In this document: in pieces, positions 4,682 through 36,100 of the stretch
Position numbering within the stretch: the first letter of the stretch is position 1
How the letters are laid out: the number at the start of each line of letters is the position of its first letter
Source: a virus
Virus record (IMG/VR): IMGVR_UViG_3300045051_000090
Location: 1-42,684 of that record
Direction: 5' to 3' (one strand)
Length of the DNA stretch: 42,684 nucleotides
Made by a program: the position numbers and the translations under genes
The notes under the pieces: model-generated
Told to the model about the DNA's origin: nothing
The model's input: the letters and a program-made list of their open reading frames with translations, nothing else
The model's database searches: none

Positions 4682-5431
4682 CTAATTGTAGATTTTGTTA
4701 TTGAATAGCGTCTTATGTCCGATAATCGGAATGTCTTGAATAAAGTAACGGTTTTCGTCGACTACTTTAGTAATAAGGACTAATCCTTGTTGCCAATCTG
4801 GGTCAGAACAATACTCTGGGTCTAAACCACATAGACAACCGCTTCCCACTCCCACAACCGTTTTCTCTTCGTCTCCGAATGTCTTGTAGAATTTACCTAG
4901 TTTATGAGTGTGTCCTTGGATAACCGTTTCGGCATATTTTAGGACTAGTTTCTTCTCGGACGCACAAGAGTTCGCAAGGGCGACGTCGAAGTGACCAATC
5001 ATTATCTTGCCAACGGTTGTGTAGGCGCTTCTGCCCTTAGAACGCACGTATTCGATACCACGTTCTTCTAACCGGAATAATTCTTCTATCGTGAGTGACC
5101 TTAGACTTGATAGCTCGGCAGCCTTGCTCCATAAATACTTTTGGAGTCGAGCCTCGTGGTTGCCTTCTACCCAGATAATCTGGGCTTTTTTAGCGACCGA
5201 ACGCAACTCTGATAATAGTTGGTTGCCGTAGTCTATTTCGTCTTGGAGCGATAAAGCTCGATTAGGGTCTTTGTCAAACCTAGAGACACCATAGAAATCT
5301 ATGAAATCCCCATTAAGGATTATCCGTTCCGGTTTCACATCTCGGACAATCTGTTTGGCTATATCCCACGTTATCCTGTCGACATATTCTCCGTGAACAT
5401 CTCCTAGGACAATCGTTTTCTCAAGTTTCAT
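4682..5431 (-). CDS. Calcineurin-like metallophosphoesterase
   Basis: 249 residues with all signature metal-binding motifs in order: GDVHG (10-14), NGDFID (about 40-45), GNHEA (about 90), GHF and QGHTH (about 172-176). The enzyme would hydrolyse a phosphomono- or diester using two metal ions. Similar phage enzymes act on nucleotides, proteins or RNA 2',3'-cyclic phosphates; here the substrate is unknown, though a 3'-end processing role alongside the RNA-repair genes at 10-12.8 kb is possible. Clear ribosome site AGGAGAG. Confidence 0.9.
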   Translation of the reverse strand: MKLEKTIVLGDVHGEYVDRITWDIAKQIVRDVKPERIILNGDFIDFYGVSRFDKDPNRALSLQDEIDYGNQLLSELRSVAKKAQIIWVEGNHEARLQKYLWSKAAELSSLRSLTIEELFRLEERGIEYVRSKGRSAYTTVGKIMIGHFDVALANSCASEKKLVLKYAETVIQGHTHKLGKFYKTFGDEEKTVVGVGSGCLCGLDPEYCSDPDWQQGLVLITKVVDENRYFIQDIPIIGHKTLFNNKIYN

Positions 5432-5796: not shown

Positions 5797-5873
5797 TGGT
5801 CAGAGTGGCAGGAATCGAACCTGCGACCTCTGGACTCCAAGACCAGCGCGCTGACCAACTACGCTACACTCTG
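5797..5873 (-). tRNA. tRNA-Pro (UGG)
   Basis: 77 nt with encoded CCA. Acceptor CAGAGUG/CACUCUG, T loop UUCGAUU, anticodon loop CUUGGAG. The inner pair of the anticodon stem is U-U. The body closely resembles bacterial tRNA-Pro. Confidence 0.9.
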
Positions 5874-5877
5874 AAAT

Positions 5878-5952
5878 TGGTAGCGGGGGCAGGAATCGAA
5901 CCTGCGATAAACTGTTAATGAGACAGTTGAGATACCACTTCTCTACCCCGCC
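5878..5952 (-). tRNA. tRNA with CAU anticodon (elongator Met-like)
   Basis: 75 nt with encoded CCA. Anticodon loop CUCAUUA in stem AACUGU/ACAGUU; position 37 is U, where a purine is normal. Acceptor GGCGGGG/CCCCGCU has a G1-U72 wobble. The body is most like elongator Met; a lysidine-type Ile tRNA cannot be excluded. The 5' end directly touches the tRNA-Trp gene. Confidence 0.85.
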
Positions 5953-6021
5953 AGAACTAGGATTCGAACCTAGACTTTCGGTTTTGGAGACCGACGTGCT
6001 AACCATTGGCACTATTCTCCT
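5953..6021 (-). tRNA. tRNA-Trp (CCA), 3' acceptor strand incomplete
   Basis: Anticodon loop CUCCAAA in stem UCGGU/ACCGA, T arm CUAGG/CCUAG with loop UUCGAAU: a clear tRNA-Trp body. The 5' strand is AGGAGAA, but the 3' strand has only UUCU before the next tRNA begins, so three pairing bases, the discriminator and CCA are missing. Only 69 nt are encoded. Confidence 0.75.
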
Positions 6022-6025
6022 TTAT

Positions 6026-6100
6026 TGGCCCCTCCCCGGAGACTTGAACTCCGACTACCGTCGTGACAGGGCGGTGTGTTAACCGTTACACTAAGGAGAG
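6026..6100 (-). tRNA. tRNA-Asp (GUC)
   Basis: 75 nt with encoded GCCA end. Anticodon loop CUGUCAC, acceptor CUCUCCU/GGGAGGG with two G-U pairs, T loop UUCAAGU. One C-A mismatch lies in the anticodon stem. Confidence 0.88.
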
Positions 6101-6105
6101 ATATT

Positions 6106-6180
6106 TGGCTGCTAAGACAGGACTCGAACCTGTAACGCCCCGATTAACAGTCGGGTATTCTACCATTGAATTACTTAGCA
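6106..6180 (-). tRNA. tRNA-Asn (GUU)
   Basis: 75 nt with encoded GCCA end. Anticodon loop CUGUUAA in stem CCCGA/UCGGG; acceptor UGCUAAG/CUUAGCA fully paired. Confidence 0.93.
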
Positions 6181-6184
6181 TTAT

Positions 6185-6258
6185 TGGCTCTCGAGGAAGG
6201 ACTCGAACCTCCATTCACGGCTTCAAAGGCCGGTGTCCTACCTTTAGACGACTCGAGA
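6185..6258 (-). tRNA. tRNA-Gln (UUG)
   Basis: 74 nt with encoded GCCA end. Anticodon loop CUUUGAA, acceptor UCUCGAG/CUCGAGA fully paired. Confidence 0.93.
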
Positions 6259-6261
6259 ATA

Positions 6262-6346
6262 TGGTCACGGAGGAGAGACTCGAACTCTCAAGACCGAAGC
6301 CACAGGTTTCTAAAACCTGCGTGTATACCAGTTCCACCACTCCGCG
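6262..6346 (-). tRNA. tRNA-Leu (UAG)
   Basis: 85 nt class II tRNA with a long variable arm (GGCUUCGGUC) and encoded ACCA. Anticodon loop UUUAGAA, acceptor CGCGGAG/CUCCGUG. Confidence 0.92.
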
Positions 6347-6347
6347 A

Positions 6348-6423
6348 TGGTCGGGAAGTTGGGATTTGAACCCAAATGGCTGCCTTCACAAAGCAGAAGC
6401 CTAACCGTTAGCTGACTGTCCCG
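6348..6423 (-). tRNA. tRNA-His (GUG), unusual acceptor
   Basis: 76 nt with encoded ACCA. Anticodon loop UUGUGAA in stem CUGCU/GGCAG. The acceptor pairs CGGGA/UCCCG and AG/CU with one bulged C. The discriminator is A rather than C and no G lies at position -1, unlike most bacterial tRNA-His. Confidence 0.82.
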
Positions 6424-6424
6424 A

Positions 6425-6501
6425 TGGAGCTTCTTCGAGGAGTCGAACCCCGGACATCATACTTACAAGGTATGCGTTCTAACCAACTGAACTAAAGAAG
6501 C
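6425..6501 (-). tRNA. tRNA-Thr (UGU)
   Basis: 77 nt with encoded UCCA end. Anticodon loop CUUGUAA in stem CAUAC/GUAUG; acceptor GCUUCUU/AAGAAGC fully paired. Confidence 0.93.
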
Positions 6502-6503
6502 AT

Positions 6504-6595
6504 TGGAGGAAGGAGTGGGATTTGAACCCACGGACGCCCTTGCGAGCGCCAACAATTTTCAAGACTGCCTCGATAAACCACTCCGACACCCTTCC
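6504..6595 (-). tRNA. tRNA-Ser (UGA)
   Basis: 92 nt class II tRNA with a long variable arm and encoded UCCA. Anticodon loop CUUGAAA; acceptor GGAAGGG/UCCUUCC. Discriminator U instead of the common G. Confidence 0.9.
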
Positions 6596-6720
6596 TTGAG
6601 CCGTGGGGAGTCGCCTAGGATTATGAGTCCCCACGGTGACGATTTTGTTGATTTGTCTCGCCCTTTAACCTCCCGACGGCTTTTAATAGCTAGTGCCTCT
6701 AGCCGAGAGTAAAATTTTGA
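6596..6720 (-). other. Structured spacer inside the tRNA array, unidentified
   Basis: 125 bp without a canonical tRNA. It contains a 9-bp GC-rich stem, CCGTGGGGA (6601-6609) with TCCCCACGG (6628-6636), and on the minus strand a loop that reads CUCAUAA, like an anticodon loop with CAU. Further upstream on the minus strand there is a second stem, CGGCU/AGCCG. It may be a decayed tRNA or a separate small RNA. Confidence 0.45.
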
Positions 6721-6802
6721 TGGACGTGGTGGGAATCGAACCCACGTGTGGAATCCAGTTTACCTTTTACAGTAAACTATCAACCCTCAACCTTTCACGC
6801 CC
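6721..6802 (-). tRNA. tRNA-like element, GUA-containing, enlarged anticodon loop
   Basis: 82 nt. Acceptor GGGCGUG/CACGUCC fully pairs (one G-U) and the T arm GUGGG/CCCAC with loop UUCGAUU is perfect. The anticodon region reads GUUUA-CUGUAAA-AGG-UAAAC, so the loop holds three extra bases, and no good D stem is visible. No CCA is encoded. A normal tRNA-Tyr lies at 6881-6966. Possibly a decayed or specialised tRNA. Confidence 0.55.
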
Positions 6803-6803
6803 T

Positions 6804-6879
6804 TGGTGGAATCTCTGGGAATCGAACCCAGACCTCCTCTGTGCAAGAGAGGAATGCTAACCGTTATCACTAAGACCCC
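6804..6879 (-). tRNA. tRNA-Ala (UGC)
   Basis: 76 nt with encoded ACCA. Anticodon loop CUUGCAC in stem CCUCU/AGAGG. The acceptor carries the G3-U70 pair that identifies alanine. Confidence 0.94.
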
Positions 6880-6880
6880 T

Positions 6881-6966
6881 TGGTGGGGAGCATAGGATTC
6901 GAACCTACCAAGCCAATGGCGCCGGATTTACAGTCCGGTGCGACTCACCACCTTCGCCGACTCCCC
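6881..6966 (-). tRNA. tRNA-Tyr (GUA)
   Basis: 86 nt class II tRNA with encoded ACCA. Anticodon loop CUGUAAA in stem CCGGA/UCCGG, long variable arm, acceptor GGGGAGU/GCUCCCC. Confidence 0.93.
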
Positions 6967-9789: not shown

Positions 9790-10038
9790 TTAACTAAAGA
9801 AATAATCTTTCTTACCGCACTTACATTCCAAGTCTCTAACAATGCGACCATTAAAATATTCTCTTTCTTTAACTACTTCGAATTGGTGTTCTCCCTTGTA
9901 AAATTTACACTTCTTGTTCTTTTTACTAAGAGATCGTTTGTTGCCTTTTACTTCTTCCGGAGGGTCAATTTCGCCAATATATTCCATTTGAATATGCTTT
10001 GGCGCTCCCCAATTTACGTCTTTCGTGCCTCTTGCCAT
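9790..10038 (-). CDS. Hypothetical basic zinc-like protein
   Basis: 82 residues from the ATG at 10038, which has AAGG about 8 bases upstream and follows the stop of the nucleotidyltransferase gene by one base. Lys-rich centre (KGNKRSLSKKNKKCKFYKG) and a C-terminal CKCGKK, three Cys in all. The last gene of the RNA-repair operon. Nucleic-acid binding is plausible; family unknown. Confidence 0.65.
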   Translation of the reverse strand: MARGTKDVNWGAPKHIQMEYIGEIDPPEEVKGNKRSLSKKNKKCKFYKGEHQFEVVKEREYFNGRIVRDLECKCGKKDYFFS

Positions 10039-10039
10039 T

Positions 10040-10810
10040 TTAGCAACCTTCACACATCGGTTCTGTGTATGCCTTGTGAATGAAATCTTCAATCCACTCA
10101 ATATCTGGCTTCATTTCCTTAAATTCACTTTTAGCCTCTGCAACTGCGACACGATTATTCATATCACTCATTGCTGCGACTATCTCTGGCAAATAAGGTT
10201 GAATCTCGGCTACTGACAATGGCTTAATTTTTAGTAACAAATCCTTAAAATCGCATTCGTCCAAATTACATTTGAACTCTCCGGTTAATAGGAACTGTTC
10301 ACATTGCCACATTACACGAAGGAAGGCGACGGCAAATTTTGCTGTTCGTTCCTGTCCTTTTACACCAACGTCTTCAAAGTTATAAAACTTGTTCCATTGA
10401 TTGTGTGCGTAACCTCTTGAGGCGTTGACAAAATGGTGAGTGTCCATAAATTTAGTCCAGTTCTCTCTCATTTCGTCGATTATAGGACTTGTCTCAATTA
10501 CTTGGTCAGAGAAGAATACCTCCAAGATCGTAGCGTTTCCCTTTGTCGCTTGTTTACAAAAGTCGGCTAGTTCATACGAAGTGTTGTCTTCGTCGCCTTC
10601 AATCCAAGTTGTGTTCTTCTGTTTTTTGAATGGGCTTAGGACGTTCTTCAACGGTGAGATATGAATGCCCCGATAATCCCAATCAGAATTTTCGTTGGCG
10701 AGGCCGTGAAGCCTCGAACCAACAACTACCTTTGTTAATACTTTAACCTCGTCTTCTGATTCGTGAACCATCAACTCGGCAACTTCTTTTGCTTCGTCTG
10801 GAAATAACAT
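10040..10810 (-). CDS. RlaP-like nucleotidyltransferase (pol-beta superfamily)
   Basis: 256 residues. VVVGSRLHG (28-36) followed by NSDWDYRGI (41-49) is the GS...D-x-D-x-R-G signature of the RlaP/YcgL-type nucleotidyltransferases (Pfam PF10127). Asp43 and Asp45 would bind the metal and nucleotide. This family is linked by gene neighbourhood to RNA ligases and proposed to add or edit nucleotides on damaged RNA ends; the two genes upstream here are indeed a polynucleotide kinase-phosphatase and an RNA ligase. The C-terminal half is helical. The ATG at 10810 overlaps the upstream TGA; a GTG one codon earlier is possible. The exact reaction is unknown. Confidence 0.85.
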   Translation of the reverse strand: MLFPDEAKEVAELMVHESEDEVKVLTKVVVGSRLHGLANENSDWDYRGIHISPLKNVLSPFKKQKNTTWIEGDEDNTSYELADFCKQATKGNATILEVFFSDQVIETSPIIDEMRENWTKFMDTHHFVNASRGYAHNQWNKFYNFEDVGVKGQERTAKFAVAFLRVMWQCEQFLLTGEFKCNLDECDFKDLLLKIKPLSVAEIQPYLPEIVAAMSDMNNRVAVAEAKSEFKEMKPDIEWIEDFIHKAYTEPMCEGC

Positions 10811-11019
10811 CACAATACTCCTCCTCTTACAATTTCTTTGTCAGAAATCTCTTTTAACCATTTTTGGGCTTGTTTTAGAGAGGTTGTAGTAGGACTTTCT
10901 TGCGAATACATACAACCGGACTCGTAACAACTCCACGTTTCAACGTAATAATGCTTTACGCCGTTCCTTTGCTCACGAAAAGCGATTCTCGGTAAATGCT
11001 CTCTTCTAAACAGTCCCAT
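10810..11019 (-). CDS. Hypothetical small protein in RNA-repair operon
   Basis: 69 residues, two Cys (WSCYESGCMYS) and a C-terminal helix (SLKQAQKWLKEISDKEIV). Ribosome site AAGGAGAT before the ATG. Sits between the kinase-phosphatase and the nucleotidyltransferase with 1-bp spacing, so it is co-translated with them. No family recognised; it could be a partner of the repair enzymes. Confidence 0.7.
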   Translation of the reverse strand: MGLFRREHLPRIAFREQRNGVKHYYVETWSCYESGCMYSQESPTTTSLKQAQKWLKEISDKEIVRGGVL

Positions 11020-11886
11020 CTAAAAATCTCCTTCAGCCACTTGTAGGCAAGTTAATCCTTTGTCTCTCCACATTTCGACCACTTGATTCCGGTCGTCGAG
11101 GACAAATTGGACGTTATATTTGTCTTTTACGTGCTGATTAAATAACTCTTCTTTGACGATTGCGTCTTTTCGGCTATCACCGGCCTCTCGCATAAGTAAT
11201 TGGTCAAAAGGCACATTATTATCAATTAGCCAGTTTTCAGTTGCTTCACGACAAGAACCGTCTCGACCCGATAACATTATGATTTCGTGCTGATAACCGA
11301 CAAATCTTGATAAAATCTCCAGAATTGGCTCATTTACACGGTCTATACCGACCTTTTCCCAATCATAAGGCGACCTTTTACCCATTTTTGCGATAGTTCC
11401 GTCAATGTCGCACAATATTGCCTTCTTTAAATCAGTATTTGGCACATATTGCTCCAGTTTTGGCTTAACATATTGGTTATACATACGCATAATCACGTCT
11501 TTACCAACTGAATTTTGACGTTTGAGGTCTCTTTTGATACATTCTGCGACCGGAACTTTCAAGAAACTGTCGTCTTCAGTCACAATTACCTTGTCTCCGA
11601 ATCTTTGCTTCACAATCCAAGAGATTCTCTTGAAGTGAGAGTCGTCTAGGTTAGTATCGTCGACGACTACGTTCTTACCTTCGTCGAGTGCTAGAAGGAT
11701 AAGATAATCTCTCATATCCTTCACGAACTTCTCATTTGACTTAGACCACTTGGAATTGTCCATCATTGCTCTAAGATCGTCTTTATTTACTCGTTTCCAC
11801 CCGAACTTGTCTACTAATTGTTTTGCGAATGTTGATTTGCCACTTGCCGGTAGTCCTTTAAGAAGCAATACTTCCTGCTGTTTCAC
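11020..11886 (-). CDS. pseT: Polynucleotide 5'-kinase / 3'-phosphatase, T4 PseT type
   Basis: 288 residues (T4 enzyme 301). Kinase half: P-loop GLPASGKST (11-19), then RVNKDDLRAMM and NVVVDDTNLD. Phosphatase half of the HAD type: CDIDGT (159-164), MLSGRDG (204-210) and the closing DDRNQVVEMWR (264-274), very close to the T4 protein over the last 30 residues. The enzyme turns 5'-OH and 3'-phosphate or cyclic-phosphate ends into ligatable 5'-phosphate and 3'-OH ends, as needed to mend tRNAs cut by anticodon nucleases. GTG start with a GAGGGGGT site; it overlaps the ligase gene by 29 bp, so the two are made together. Confidence 0.95.
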   Translation of the reverse strand: MKQQEVLLLKGLPASGKSTFAKQLVDKFGWKRVNKDDLRAMMDNSKWSKSNEKFVKDMRDYLILLALDEGKNVVVDDTNLDDSHFKRISWIVKQRFGDKVIVTEDDSFLKVPVAECIKRDLKRQNSVGKDVIMRMYNQYVKPKLEQYVPNTDLKKAILCDIDGTIAKMGKRSPYDWEKVGIDRVNEPILEILSRFVGYQHEIIMLSGRDGSCREATENWLIDNNVPFDQLLMREAGDSRKDAIVKEELFNQHVKDKYNVQFVLDDRNQVVEMWRDKGLTCLQVAEGDF

Positions 11887-12823
11887 TTTCTACCCCCTCG
11901 AAACTGTTTTCAATTAACTTTTGTTTATACCATTCTGGGACGCCACGAGTCGCAACACGCAATACTTCGCCTTTGAACTCGTTGAAAAGGAAGGTCTTAA
12001 TGTTTTCTGACTCCTCTTCCAAGATGTCTTCTTTGATTTCGGCTAGGATTTTGCCAATATCTCTTGGCTCATTCTCTAACTCATTTCTTTCTCTTAGATG
12101 TTGGATTGCTTTTTCCCATCTTGCTTCAGTTCTAAAACTCTCCTTGAAGACGTCGAACTTCCCTCTAACGGTATTTTCAGCATTCCAGTTCTCTCTATGA
12201 ACTTCTTTGAATTGTTCAGAGACATATTTACCCATCATTATTGCGATAGGTTGTCCACCAAGGAGGAATGGCTCGTTGTAGTTTTTGACGACTACGCCTT
12301 CGATAGATACTTCCCCATTTTTGGTCTCAACCTTGCCAAGCACACTAGGTGTCTTTAGTAGGTCAAGAAGCATTGTAGGATTTTCAATCTTACCTTTGAA
12401 TAATAACGGAACGGTCTCAAGGTCTAGGACGTCAGCGTATTCTTTTAGTTTGTCATACTCTGAAATAAAGTGTCCATTATCACAGACCCCGAAAATCATA
12501 ATGTTGTGTTTAGGAGTTCTTTCGTATTTGAGAACATTGTGCTTTGGTGAATCCACGCATTCTCCGTAATAAAAAATACCCTCTTCTAGTTTGCCTTGCT
12601 CAAATAGTTCTGACACATAGTCAGTTGCCTGTTTGAACATTTTTTGTGGTGTCTCCGGCCAGATTCTTGCTCCTTTAGACCGAACGAATAGTTCACCATC
12701 TGCGACGACTCCGAACCCGAATTGTGAGCCGTCAATTTTTTCTGTAACCTCTACCTCTCCAGTAAAGATTCTTGAAATGAAGTCGCTACCTACTGCGAAT
12801 ATTTTTGGAAATGCCGGTATCAT
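11858..12823 (-). CDS. RNA ligase, Rnl-type nucleotidyltransferase
   Basis: 321 residues with the covalent nucleotidyltransferase motifs in order: motif I TEKIDGSQ with nucleophile Lys29, VRSKG (48-51), motif III YYGECV (85-90), motif IV EGVVVK (175-180) and motif V MMGKYVSEQFK (196-206). This is the RNA_ligase family, nearest by pattern to Rnl2-like ligases: ATP adenylates Lys29, AMP moves to the RNA 5'-phosphate and the nick is sealed. The C-terminal 110 residues are helical and not shared by all relatives. Strong ribosome site GAAGGAGGGGG. It heads the repair operon with the kinase-phosphatase. Confidence 0.92.
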   Translation of the reverse strand: MIPAFPKIFAVGSDFISRIFTGEVEVTEKIDGSQFGFGVVADGELFVRSKGARIWPETPQKMFKQATDYVSELFEQGKLEEGIFYYGECVDSPKHNVLKYERTPKHNIMIFGVCDNGHFISEYDKLKEYADVLDLETVPLLFKGKIENPTMLLDLLKTPSVLGKVETKNGEVSIEGVVVKNYNEPFLLGGQPIAIMMGKYVSEQFKEVHRENWNAENTVRGKFDVFKESFRTEARWEKAIQHLRERNELENEPRDIGKILAEIKEDILEEESENIKTFLFNEFKGEVLRVATRGVPEWYKQKLIENSFEGVESETAGSIAS

Positions 12824-13203
12824 TCTCCCCCTCCTTCGATAAATGTTGTTATTACCTTGAAATTCTTAACTACGATATTAAACCCACCTAGGTTATATTC
12901 TTCTTTCTTGTCTTCGTCAAACGACCCCAGAGTTCTAATACAGTTTTCGGTGCGAGGAGGAACGATTCTCTTCTTAATCTCCTCAATGTCTACGCCTTCC
13001 ACCCTCTCTAAATATCTAATAACGGCGTGGTCGGTAACTTGGATTGGTCTTGTCTCTCGTTCGTTTTTTATTCTTAACTCTTTTAGTTTCTCAATTCTGG
13101 TCTTAATTGTGTCAGTAATTAGTTTTTGCTCTTCATAGAGTTTGTTTAGTTCTTCTTGGTGTTGTTCAACTAATTCTGCTGTTGTTTGTGTTTTTGCCCC
13201 CAT
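12820..13203 (-). CDS. Conserved phage protein, RelE-fold-like
   Basis: 127 residues. An N-terminal coiled coil (10-50) precedes QVTDHAVIRYLERVEGVD (55-72), a motif common in phage proteins of unknown function, and a beta-rich end (EYNLGGFNIVVKNFKVITTF). The H-x-x-x-R-x-x-E-R pattern followed by a sheet recalls RelE/BrnT-type RNases, but no partner antitoxin is seen. Overlaps the ligase gene by 4 bp, which ties it to RNA repair. Confidence 0.65.
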   Translation of the reverse strand: MGAKTQTTAELVEQHQEELNKLYEEQKLITDTIKTRIEKLKELRIKNERETRPIQVTDHAVIRYLERVEGVDIEEIKKRIVPPRTENCIRTLGSFDEDKKEEYNLGGFNIVVKNFKVITTFIEGGGE

Positions 13204-32563: not shown

Positions 32564-32808
32564 TGAAAAAAGGTGAAAAATACTTTATCCCCGGAAAAAG
32601 ACGAGTCGGACATTGGGGAGTTTATCAGCCAGTTACTAAAGGAGAAATCCTTAAAGTCAACAAAGACTCAATCGAGATTATGCTCGAGGACACCGTAGTC
32701 CCTTCAATAATTCCAATCGAACGAGTTAAAAATACTGGCAAAAAACACAAAATGAAAGACGAAGAGTTAGAAGAACTCATAATTGAAAGGGTGGAAAATG
32801 CTATTTAA
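32563..32808 (+). CDS. Hypothetical small protein
   Basis: 81 residues: a small beta-barrel-like start (GEKYFIPGKRRVGHWGVYQP, TKGEILKVNKDSIEIMLED) and an acidic helix at the end. TAATG overlap with the nozzle gene and an 11-bp overlap with the first receptor-binding gene. Possibly a tail connector; unknown. Confidence 0.7.
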   Translation: MKKGEKYFIPGKRRVGHWGVYQPVTKGEILKVNKDSIEIMLEDTVVPSIIPIERVKNTGKKHKMKDEELEELIIERVENAI

Positions 32809-33778
32809 TAGAAATTACGACTTTCAAGCGGGCGACACAATCGTTGCTGACCAGATAGACCAAGAGTTTAATACGCTTAGAACTATCCTAAACGGCAACA
32901 TTTCTGGCGAGAATATCGCTGACGCCTCAATCGACCTAACAAAACTCTCTGCTGACATCAATCCCGTTATTAGAACAGCAGAACTAGACGGCAACGCAAT
33001 CGTCTCTGGTATCGGATTAACTGGATTTAGTGGTTCTCACACTTCTGGTTGGTCTAATAGAAATGACGTTATTAAGGCAGGAATTGCCTACGTTCGCGGA
33101 GAGAGAGTTGTTACACAAGATTATCCAGTAACTTTCCAAGCTAGTGCTACCTCTTGGGTAGACCTAGACACAGATGGAGTTTTCCACATTACAGTAAACT
33201 CAACTGAACCGGCTGTATACCAAAACTCTATGAGAGTTATGAAGGTAGTCTGCGACGGAACAAAAATAACAGAGTATCAACCTCTAGGGTTTGGCGATGT
33301 AGGAACAGTTATCCCATTCGCAGGTAAATATGCACCTAAAGGATATGAACTCTGTCACGGACAAGAAATAACAAGGTCAACTTACGACAAACTTTGGCAG
33401 GTAATCGGTAGTATACACGGAGCGCCTTCAGACGGCACAAAGATTAAACTACCAGACTGTCGAACAAGAGCAGTCCACGGACACGGCGACCCAACTTATT
33501 ACCTAAATCTAGGTGAAAAAGGTGGCGCAGTTGACAAAAATCACTCACACGGTGTCGGCACAAACGCAGCCGGCGACCACTCTCACGGCACAGGCGCAGG
33601 ATATTATGACGGTGGGGTTTCTTCAAACCTAGCCACATATACATCAAGTTGGGCGCCACCGGGTCACAGACACGACACTTATAGCGGTGGTTCTCACTCA
33701 CACAGCGCTTGGTCAAACAACGCAAGTGTGGCAGTAGACCCATATATCGTTCTAAATTACATAATTAAGGTGGCATAA
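32798..33778 (+). CDS. Receptor-binding tail protein 1, collar-type
   Basis: 326 residues from the ATG at 32798 (AAAGGGTGG upstream; a TTG five codons earlier is rejected). N-terminal anchor NRNYDFQAGDTIVADQIDQE shared with the next three proteins; a middle domain (GWSNRNDVIKAGIAYVRGER) shared with proteins 3 and 4; then a Tail_Collar domain (VIPFAGKYAPKGYELCHGQE, LPDCRTRAVHGHGD) and a His-rich C-terminus (KNHSHGVGT, GDHSHG, PGHRHD, GGSHSHS) as in metal-binding receptor tips. Confidence 0.85.
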   Translation: MLFNRNYDFQAGDTIVADQIDQEFNTLRTILNGNISGENIADASIDLTKLSADINPVIRTAELDGNAIVSGIGLTGFSGSHTSGWSNRNDVIKAGIAYVRGERVVTQDYPVTFQASATSWVDLDTDGVFHITVNSTEPAVYQNSMRVMKVVCDGTKITEYQPLGFGDVGTVIPFAGKYAPKGYELCHGQEITRSTYDKLWQVIGSIHGAPSDGTKIKLPDCRTRAVHGHGDPTYYLNLGEKGGAVDKNHSHGVGTNAAGDHSHGTGAGYYDGGVSSNLATYTSSWAPPGHRHDTYSGGSHSHSAWSNNASVAVDPYIVLNYIIKVA

Positions 33779-34368
33779 TGCACTTCACAAGAAACTACGA
33801 TTTTTCAGCAGGAACAACAATAGTAGCCGATCAAGTCGACCAAGAGTTTAACTCTATTCGAGCAGTCTTGAACGGTAATGTTGACGACTCTAATTTAAGA
33901 GACGCCTGTATCACAACAGCAAAAATTGTAGAGGGCAGCGTCATAACAAGTAAAATTGCGAACAACGCTGTCACGGCAGAGAAAACAGAAGAACTGCCAA
34001 AGTGTGTTGATAGAAAGAACCACGGGTCTAGTGTTGTCGTTACAGACCAACTTATTCAGACCGGTTGGGCTTATGTAATGGGACAGGGAGGAGTTGACTA
34101 TACTCAACTTTCCACAATTATCTTCCCAATTCCATTCGACGAGAATGAAGTTCCTATTGTCACAATAACCCCCGCAGGTAATAGCGGGACTACACTACCG
34201 ACAAAGCCCGGGCAACCGTCTGGCTCTTGGGAAAGAATGGCCGGAGGTATTGGTGAAATAACAAATACCGGCTTTAAGGTAAGAATGGGGACAAACAACG
34301 GCGAAACTATGGCGACTAATGTCTACTATATGTTTACGTGGATTGCAATCGGAAAGAAGGCTAGATAA
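33778..34368 (+). CDS. Receptor-binding tail protein 2
   Basis: 196 residues. Same anchor (TRNYDFSAGTTIVADQVDQE), a short helical repeat region (ITTAKIVEGSVITSKI, NNAVTAEKTEEL) as in trimeric fibre shafts, then a gp53-like H-type C-terminal domain (GWAYVMGQGGVDYTQL, YYMFTWIAIGKKA). It overlaps the previous gene by 1 bp. Probably an alternative or accessory receptor tip on the same baseplate. Confidence 0.82.
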   Translation: MHFTRNYDFSAGTTIVADQVDQEFNSIRAVLNGNVDDSNLRDACITTAKIVEGSVITSKIANNAVTAEKTEELPKCVDRKNHGSSVVVTDQLIQTGWAYVMGQGGVDYTQLSTIIFPIPFDENEVPIVTITPAGNSGTTLPTKPGQPSGSWERMAGGIGEITNTGFKVRMGTNNGETMATNVYYMFTWIAIGKKAR

Positions 34369-35258
34369 TGATTTACACACGGAAATATGACTTTACAGAA
34401 GGCACTACAATCGTCGCAGACCAAATAGACAATGAGTTTAACGCAGTCGCACAGGTCTTAAACGGAAACATCGCTTCAGATAATATCGCAAATGGGGGCA
34501 TAAGCTCGGTTAGTCTTGCAGACGCAGTCAATCCAGAAGTTCGGGACAAGGATATGCACGCAAGTTTCTACTTTTCTGGCATAAACCTAACCCCTACTAG
34601 CGGGTGGACAAACCTAATGGCCACAATCAACGCAGGAGTAGCTTACATTAGAGGTAAAAGAGTAGTTACTGGTGGAGTCGTCAATAAGGCGTTCGCACCG
34701 AATACTACAACTTGGATAGACTTAGACTGGAATGGTTCATTCTACTATCCTACTGGAGCTACTTGGCCAAGTGTTACAGAAAATTCAATTAGAATCGCAA
34801 AGGTCGTAACTGACGGCACAAAAATAACTTCGATTACGGACGTTAGACCATACAAAGAGAGCGTAAAGATCTTCTATGGCGGTAGCTCGGGTAATATCCA
34901 GTTAAACACAACAGGAAACTGGAACTATGTTGAAACGGCTGATGTTTGGTCATTTATTGCACCAAAAGACGGCATAGCATTCGCATTCGCAAATCCATTC
35001 TTTGACAAGCAAAGCACAACGACTTCAGAGCTATCAACGGGATTTTCGATTATAGAAGAGAACACGAGAGTTGCTACGGCACACGTTTACCACGCACCAC
35101 TTTATGCGGCCGCAGTCCAGTATAACAATCAGTTCGTAATGACTCAATTCCCTGTCACGGCAGGAAAGACGTATAAATTAAGGTGGTCTGCTTCAGACAA
35201 CGCAAGCCGTCCACTAATAGTCAGAGCGCACGACGTAAAGATTCTTGTAATCGGTTAA
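34368..35258 (+). CDS. Receptor-binding tail protein 3
   Basis: 296 residues. Anchor TRKYDFTEGTTIVADQIDNE, middle domain SGWTNLMATINAGVAYIRGK and DGTKITSITDVRP shared with proteins 1 and 4, then a distinct beta-sandwich-like C-terminal domain (SGNIQLNTTGNWNYVETADV) unlike the others. Overlaps the previous gene by 1 bp. Confidence 0.82.
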   Translation: MIYTRKYDFTEGTTIVADQIDNEFNAVAQVLNGNIASDNIANGGISSVSLADAVNPEVRDKDMHASFYFSGINLTPTSGWTNLMATINAGVAYIRGKRVVTGGVVNKAFAPNTTTWIDLDWNGSFYYPTGATWPSVTENSIRIAKVVTDGTKITSITDVRPYKESVKIFYGGSSGNIQLNTTGNWNYVETADVWSFIAPKDGIAFAFANPFFDKQSTTTSELSTGFSIIEENTRVATAHVYHAPLYAAAVQYNNQFVMTQFPVTAGKTYKLRWSASDNASRPLIVRAHDVKILVIG

Positions 35259-35266
35259 GGAGAAAA

Positions 35267-36100
35267 ATGCAATATAACAGAAATTTCGACTTTGCTGCCG
35301 GCACAACAATTATCGCAGACCAGATAGACCAAGAACTCAACACTCTCGCAGGTGTTATAAATGGTAATATCAGCACCGATAATCTAGCAATGGGCGGTGT
35401 TACAGTCGACAAACTAGAACAATCAATCAATCCAGAAACCCGATTCCAAGAAGGATTTTCTGAAGGAGTTTTCTCTGGATTGATACCAAACCCTACCTCT
35501 GGGTGGAGCAACAGAAACGCAGACATTGTTTCTGGCACAGCCTATATAAGAGGAAAACGTGTCCAAACATCGACACAAATAGCACACACCTTCGGCGTAT
35601 CAAAAGACACATACATTGATATAGACAAAAATGGTAACTTTGCATATCAAGAGGTATCAAACGGCGCAACAGAACCCGCAGTTACAGCAAACTCTATTAG
35701 AGTAATGAAAATTGTCACAGACGCAACCAAAATCACAGGGTGGTATGACAGACGACCGTGGCAATGGATTTACCCCGGACAAGCAGGAGGCCCCGCCTTC
35801 GAGAACTCTTGGGTAAACTATGACGCCAACTGGATTCCGGCTAGATTCCGAAAGAATCAGATGGGAATTGTCGAGATACAGGGGCTAGTAAAAAGTGGCA
35901 CAAACGCAGCCATCTGGACACTACCACCGGGATTTAGACCAACTCCAACTTACACTCAAGGGCTAATCTTTTGCACACTAGCAGGAGACGGACTTGGAAG
36001 AGTGGATATACAGGTAAACGGAGCAGTCTATAAAAATACTATCGGAGCAAATAACAGTTATGTATCTCTAGCGGGAATACTATTCCGAGGGGAGGCATAA
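35267..36100 (+). CDS. Receptor-binding tail protein 4
   Basis: 277 residues from the ATG at 35267 (AAGGAGAAA upstream). Anchor NRNFDFAAGTTIIADQIDQE, middle domain GWSNRNADIVSGTAYIRGKR and DATKITGWYDRRP, then a short C-terminal jelly-roll-like domain (YDANWIPARFRKNQMGIVEI, PPGFRPTPTYTQG) of the kind seen on siphovirus and podovirus tips. Confidence 0.82.
   Translation: MQYNRNFDFAAGTTIIADQIDQELNTLAGVINGNISTDNLAMGGVTVDKLEQSINPETRFQEGFSEGVFSGLIPNPTSGWSNRNADIVSGTAYIRGKRVQTSTQIAHTFGVSKDTYIDIDKNGNFAYQEVSNGATEPAVTANSIRVMKIVTDATKITGWYDRRPWQWIYPGQAGGPAFENSWVNYDANWIPARFRKNQMGIVEIQGLVKSGTNAAIWTLPPGFRPTPTYTQGLIFCTLAGDGLGRVDIQVNGAVYKNTIGANNSYVSLAGILFRGEA

Follow-up and report, generated by a model that had tools for sequence, protein, structure and literature searches.

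The RNA-repair operon described here lies on the minus strand of a 42,684-base IMG/VR virus record (IMGVR_UViG_3300045051_000090, positions 1 to 42,684; "the window" hereafter is this whole stretch) and encodes an RNA ligase, a T4-type polynucleotide 5′-kinase/3′-phosphatase (PNKP) and an RlaP-family nucleotidyltransferase. With moderate confidence, we read it as an early-region "heal, refill and seal" cassette for RNA, composed of PNKP, RlaP and an Rnl2-like ligase. The substrate would be RNA, most likely tRNA, that has been cut by a host defence nuclease: PNKP would remove the 3′ or cyclic phosphate and phosphorylate the 5′-OH, RlaP would extend the clean 3′-OH by one or a few nucleotides where the nuclease had trimmed the end, and the ligase would then join the ends. 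The operon is real and conserved, its enzymes retain their catalytic residues, and their association recurs in reshuffled form in other phages. Nucleotide restoration by phage RlaP has already been published as a prediction, for which Burroughs & Aravind 2016 is said to be the source cited by Iyer et al. 2021.

Results

The plus strand of the window holds terminase, portal and head genes, and an early-type gene block that includes the RNA-repair genes runs leftwards on the minus strand. Four open reading frames (ORFs) were confirmed there: an ATP-dependent RNA ligase of 321 residues (11858-12823), PNKP (288 residues, 11020-11886), a 69-residue protein, orf69 (10810-11019), and RlaP (257 residues, 10040-10813), which has a GTG start and a conserved core from about residue 23. 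Ligase and PNKP genes overlap by 29 nt, PNKP and orf69 abut, orf69 and RlaP overlap by 4 nt, and a good Shine-Dalgarno sequence is present at each of the four. The preliminary description of this DNA, which had proposed an overlapping operon with a 69-residue protein of no known family between PNKP and RlaP, is borne out in this respect. Neither Pfam, PHROGs, NCBIfam nor PADLOC contains a match to orf69, and the fetched loci besides the window hold no relative of it; a 66-residue ORF that occupies the equivalent slot in Streptomyces phage Alone3 does not match it. No match to the operon came up in a megablast search of 50,697 phage records, promoter and terminator scans gave nothing above shuffled expectation, and PADLOC found no convincing defence-system match among the four proteins.

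The enzyme identities first assigned also hold, since profile searches matched RNA_ligase (PF09414), HAD_PNKP (PF25109) and PF10127 above their cut-offs, and inspection of the three sequences found intact catalytic motifs. PNKP joins an N-terminal P-loop kinase (GLPASGKS) and a C-terminal HAD phosphatase (DIDGT) in one chain, and it belongs to the T4 type. It matches HAD_PNKP with E 5.5e-55 and 185.9 bits (cut-off 27.6), the AAA_33 kinase domain with E 4e-17, and phrog_505 over residues 4-288 with E 3e-93. T4 PseT is 36% identical to it over the full length, and the nearest solved structures are bacterial Pnkp1 (4xrp, E 8e-46) and T4 Pnkp (1ltq, E 3.5e-45).

For the ligase, sequence profiles and a predicted structure point to the same subfamily. 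It matches PF09414 with E 5.4e-15 and 56.4 bits (cut-off 27) and, among PHROGs, the RNA ligase family phrog_548, whereas the Rnl1 profile PF09511 (RNA_lig_T4_1) scores 18.3 bits, under its cut-off of 28.3, and has no above-cut-off match anywhere in the window. The nucleotidyltransferase motifs K29xDG, EGVV (175-178) and K199 are present, and K29, D31, E88, E175, K180 and K199 are invariant across 42 sequences; in the KxK of motif V only the second lysine, K199, is conserved, position 197 being mostly M, S, A or C in the family. An AlphaFold (AF2) model with a predicted local distance difference test score (pLDDT) of 89.7 has T4 Rnl2 as its best fold match (Z 16.1, root-mean-square deviation [rmsd] 3.3, 194 residues), followed by the Naegleria RNA ligase (Z 15.9) and then T4 Rnl1 (Z 13.2). 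Aligned by hhalign with T4 RnlB, the ligase extends over 237 columns (E 4.5e-7) through YRTEARW...PKDIG...DI into the helical Rnl2-type C-terminal domain; the alignment with RnlA spans 129 columns, within the nucleotidyltransferase domain only. In the full-length fold comparison with T4 Rnl2, the orientation of the C-terminal domain differs. A DNA-ligase identity is not favoured, with DNA ligases at Z of about 11 versus 16 for RNA ligases and a C-terminal domain that matches Rnl2.

These results bear on the earlier proposal that ligase and PNKP correspond to the T4 pair that undoes PrrC damage. T4 counters PrrC damage with Pnk and Rnl1, the latter being the sealing enzyme (PMC2610378). The kinase-phosphatase half of the comparison stands; the ligase half does not, because Pfam, fold and profile alignment all place the window ligase as Rnl2-like and thus apart from the enzyme that T4 uses against PrrC.

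RlaP matches PF10127 with E 2.4e-23 and 83.6 bits (cut-off 23) and is a member of that family. Its pol-beta active site consists of G32 and S33, the DxD aspartates D44 and D46, and E81, all kept in 23 of 24 aligned sequences; in some distant PF10127 members, T4 NrdC.11 included, the position aligned with E81 is not acidic. Sequence searches against solved structures, single or profile, gave nothing significant. The AF2 model (pLDDT 88.5) finds its closest solved fold in HalB (Z 11.1, rmsd 3.8, 176 aligned residues), and the next neighbours are aminoglycoside nucleotidyltransferases at Z of about 7. The modelled fold speaks for nucleotidyl transfer but not for any particular acceptor.

Other MNT-like nucleotidyltransferases tag or modify ends, tRNA or protein. 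The operon might accordingly heal and seal RNA while RlaP tags or protects ends, for instance by adding a terminal AMP or an oligonucleotide, or modifies tRNA or protein, with no refilling at all. We consider this rather unlikely. Its appeal lies in the compact pol-beta architecture with a helical C-terminal half, whose neighbours are HalB and the aminoglycoside enzymes, in the loss of the E81-aligned acidic residue from some relatives, and in RlaP loci that have no kinase or no ligase; it sits poorly with the close linkage of RlaP to end-healing and sealing enzymes, and no HEPN toxin partner was recognised beside RlaP in the neighbourhoods read. Addition of CCA to the phage's own tRNAs is an unlikely main role for RlaP, as 11 of 11 intact tRNA genes in the window encode CCA.

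The association of RlaP with end-processing enzymes was followed in relatives. A scan for RlaP yielded 21 viral contigs, including several duplicates, and the counts below refer to 20 RlaP records, namely the window and 19 of these. A HAD_PNKP domain lies near RlaP in 18 of the 20. Ligases are more varied: 11 records have a PF09414 (Rnl2-like) ligase and four others an above-cut-off PF09511 (Rnl1-like) match (15/20 in total), and the Rnl2-like enzymes themselves comprise three dissimilar types, that of the window, that of contigs L016 and L018, and that of L003 and L004 (about 428 residues). Three records (L006, L021 and L022) carry a phosphatase-only HAD gene that lacks the kinase half, with no above-cut-off AAA_33 kinase in the record; in L006 RlaP is located close to where the contig stops, and any ligase could thus lie beyond it. 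A calcineurin-like phosphoesterase is beside or near RlaP in L014 and in the bacterial contig L132, and in the Antrihabitans contig L131 RlaP overlaps a HAD-only gene. Counting HAD and metallophosphatase genes together, 19 of the 20 records have one near RlaP, the exception being G020, as would be predicted if RlaP depends on a clean 3′-OH.

RlaP lies closer than expected to HAD/PNKP genes (combined P about 5e-6) and to ligase genes (combined P about 3e-6). RlaP identity to the window protein is 57-80% (excluding the distant L023) and tracks neither PNKP identity (41-54%) nor ligase type; either the partners were reshuffled, therefore, or their rates of evolution differ. Among cultured phages, the Streptomyces phages Alone3 and BRock have PNKP next to RlaP, and Gordonia phage Daredevil has an RNA ligase there. 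Of the complete or cultured phages with RlaP, ten were checked, T4 among them, and each genome contains an RNA ligase match; the one in UPEC06 falls below the curated cut-off. The preliminary description had looked to relatives for the same gene order; what they share is clustering beyond chance, with the order reshuffled and the ligase swapped or not found. Early regions of phages are dense with nucleic-acid enzymes, and the genes upstream of the present operon include those for an Erf-like annealing protein and a PD-(D/E)XK nuclease, so unrelated genes could in principle have been packed together by accident. Clustering that recurs across divergent phages, with partners exchanged and gene orders altered, at the above levels of significance and in cultured phages as well, makes such packing very improbable.

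Some RlaP neighbourhoods point to tRNA. PTH2 peptidyl-tRNA hydrolase genes occur in three of them (L003, 6687-7058; L022, 6683-7042; L018, 7274-7693), and in the first two the PTH2 gene overlaps RlaP and sits between RlaP and the phosphatase. A further pointer is provided by tRNA arrays: at least seven tRNAs are present in 5 of 19 records searched; all five belong to the 11 with a PF09414 ligase and none to the 8 lacking one, a weak association (Fisher P 0.045).

The window has such an array on its minus strand (5797-6966; ARAGORN, Rfam), with tRNAs for Pro, Met, Trp (truncated), Asp, Asn, Gln, Leu, His, Thr, Ser, Ala and Tyr. ARAGORN counts 11 and Rfam 12, and the figure of at least 12 given at first resolves into 11 intact tRNAs and one truncated tRNA-Trp. 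The latter (5953-6018, minus strand, CCA anticodon) has intact D, anticodon and T arms and four acceptor pairs only; at its 3′ end tRNA-Met follows directly from 5952, and the outer 3′ strand of the acceptor and the terminal CCA are missing. Similar truncations occur in mitochondrial tRNAs that overlap and whose 3′ ends have to be rebuilt. Since relatives G002 and G015 hold complete tRNA-Trp genes, the simple reading is that this copy has probably decayed by deletion. Also within the array (6718-6802, minus strand) is an 85-nt tRNA-like RNA that matches both ends of transfer-messenger RNA (RF00023, 41.4 bits, below the gathering score of 47), with a G3-U70 pair, TCA in place of CCA, the interior missing and no tag region; contig L140 has a similar sub-threshold match of 82 nt (621-702).

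The Rnl2-like family seals nicks in duplex RNA. Ligase and PNKP could therefore act on general RNA nicks, in mRNA, rRNA or duplex RNA, and not on anticodon-loop breaks, in which case the tRNA array would be an independent defence or a codon supplement. Many RlaP records have no tRNA array, in agreement with this alternative; Rnl1-like ligases fill the same slot in other phages of the set, however, and the PTH2 genes argue for tRNA. We regard general nick repair as possible, at well under an even chance.

The operon is slightly longer than first described. At its upstream end is orf127 (12820-13203, minus strand; 127 residues), which shares 4 nt with the start of the ligase gene, is preceded by a good Shine-Dalgarno sequence and has a homologue that adjoins the RlaP/HAD pair in L022. 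Downstream, an 82-residue ORF (9790-10038, minus strand) with an ATG at 10038 starts 1 nt past the RlaP stop and is the probable last gene.

Several other genes were observed in passing. A calcineurin-like metallophosphoesterase gene (4682-5431, minus strand) adjoins the tRNA array and could encode another end-processing enzyme. On the plus strand, four consecutive ORFs (32783-36100) have a common N-terminal module (NYDF.AGTTIVADQ.DQEFN) and differing C-termini, and resemble a tail-appendage set with exchangeable tips. Upstream of RlaP in phage contig L003 (4186-5709) and in L132, a contig of a Gastranaerophilales metagenome-assembled genome (1876-3315), are DUF2828/DUF7788 proteins with a vWA-like C-terminal part, possibly Ro60/TROVE-like RNA scaffolds.

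Discussion

Several observations weigh against the heal, refill and seal reading. The fold that RlaP is predicted to adopt is common to small-molecule enzymes, such as kanamycin nucleotidyltransferase, and to DNA-oligomer enzymes, such as HalB, and so does not by itself establish RNA as the substrate; a literature search for a biochemical or experimental test of any RlaP found none. In five of the 20 RlaP records (G005, G013, G018, G019 and G020) neither ligase family was matched, and sealing is therefore not always coupled to RlaP. The relatives were, in addition, collected through RlaP, and most are incomplete contigs. Finally, the family of the window ligase is large in phages, with at least 191 confirmed relatives, and for most of the best 80 of these (39-59% identity) no RlaP or PNKP gene lies closer than about 5 kb, which makes the link of this ligase family to the RlaP module a loose one; tblastn of the ligase in the 50,697 phage records gave one weak match. 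RtcB was considered as the missing ligase and was not found in the 10 records tested, the five ligase-less ones included.

The pattern of partners raises a further, tentative possibility, to which we give appreciably less credence than to the complete three-enzyme cassette. RlaP and a 3′-phosphatase, not the ligase, may form the core as a unit that cleans and refills 3′ ends, into which ligases (Rnl2-like subtypes or Rnl1) are plugged and from which kinase or ligase can be dropped; T4 NrdC.11 would be of the same enzyme class, and T4 may mend the nucleotide-excising, RloC-type damage that its repair enzymes are supposed to be unable to overcome. RlaP keeps a 3′-phosphatase beside it in loci where neither ligase nor kinase was found, in keeping with an enzyme that requires a clean 3′-OH; three viral contigs, all incomplete, and one bacterial-contig locus show this arrangement. 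The proposal is limited by the few records, by contigs that are incomplete and by the selection of relatives through their RlaP.

T4 itself has a relative of the third enzyme. Its NrdC.11 (NC_000866, 55435-56445; our locus L150) matches PF10127 (E 2.4e-12; 46.6 bits and E 4.6e-12 for the protein) and keeps the GS and SDxD motifs; its annotation reads nucleotidyltransferase only, and the titles and abstracts of papers naming it report no functional study. It had been suggested that the present phage could rebuild lost nucleotides and that T4 cannot; because T4 encodes its own RlaP-family protein, that advantage is unsupported at the level of gene content. The T4 tRNA-repair set of PseT, RnlA, RnlB and NrdC.11 resembles the window in having a PNKP (36% identical), an Rnl2-like ligase and an RlaP-family member. 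It differs in that its genes are scattered (55.4, 108.6, 134.0 and 136.3 kb) and not gathered in one operon, and in repairing PrrC damage with Rnl1, the type without an above-cut-off match in the window.

RlaP has been described as the most prevalent repair nucleotidyltransferase of jumbo phages, with a distribution that mirrors RNA ligases, and its predicted role is to replace missing nucleotides, such as those excised by RloC, ahead of ligation (Iyer et al. 2021; PMC7824862). The discoverers of RloC noted that excision of the wobble nucleotide could defy phage repair, and left the question open (PMC2610378). The published repair systems of phages and bacteria (PMC7824862) likewise combine RlaP, an ATP-type RNA ligase and a PNK-HAD kinase-phosphatase in the same proposed refilling role, but the phages concerned are jumbo phages, whereas here a compact three-enzyme operon is found in a phage of roughly 43 kb, and in the present set the ligase slot varies and can be missing. 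Closest in layout is Podoviridae sp. ctuNt529 (MW202692, Manatee Spring), whose RlaP is 60% identical and whose RlaP, RNA ligase and PNKP genes overlap in an operon-like block; their order is RlaP-ligase-PNKP, as opposed to ligase-PNKP-orf69-RlaP, and its ligase is not matched by the window ligase in tblastn. The bacterial Pnkp1-Rnl-Hen1 complex (PMC4411300) also pairs a PNKP of the same family (4xrp) with an RNA ligase, but no Hen1 methylase gene was recognised in the window operon, and RlaP is not mentioned in the abstract on that complex. HalB, of the Hailong defence system, is closest to RlaP in modelled fold; it is only about 10% identical and, to judge from PDB titles, binds oligodeoxyadenylate and dATP analogues.

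What stands out in this comparison is that RlaP stays with a 3′-phosphatase while ligases are swapped or missing, and unrelated ligases exchanged around a steadily conserved RlaP suggest which step is common to these systems. If RlaP does restore trimmed nucleotides, it would be a phage answer to nucleotide-excising nucleases such as RloC, whose damage simple heal-and-seal repair cannot mend. With its three enzymes in one operon of a small phage, the window offers a convenient source for reconstitution, and NrdC.11 provides a genetic system in T4 that makes the idea of nucleotide restoration directly testable.

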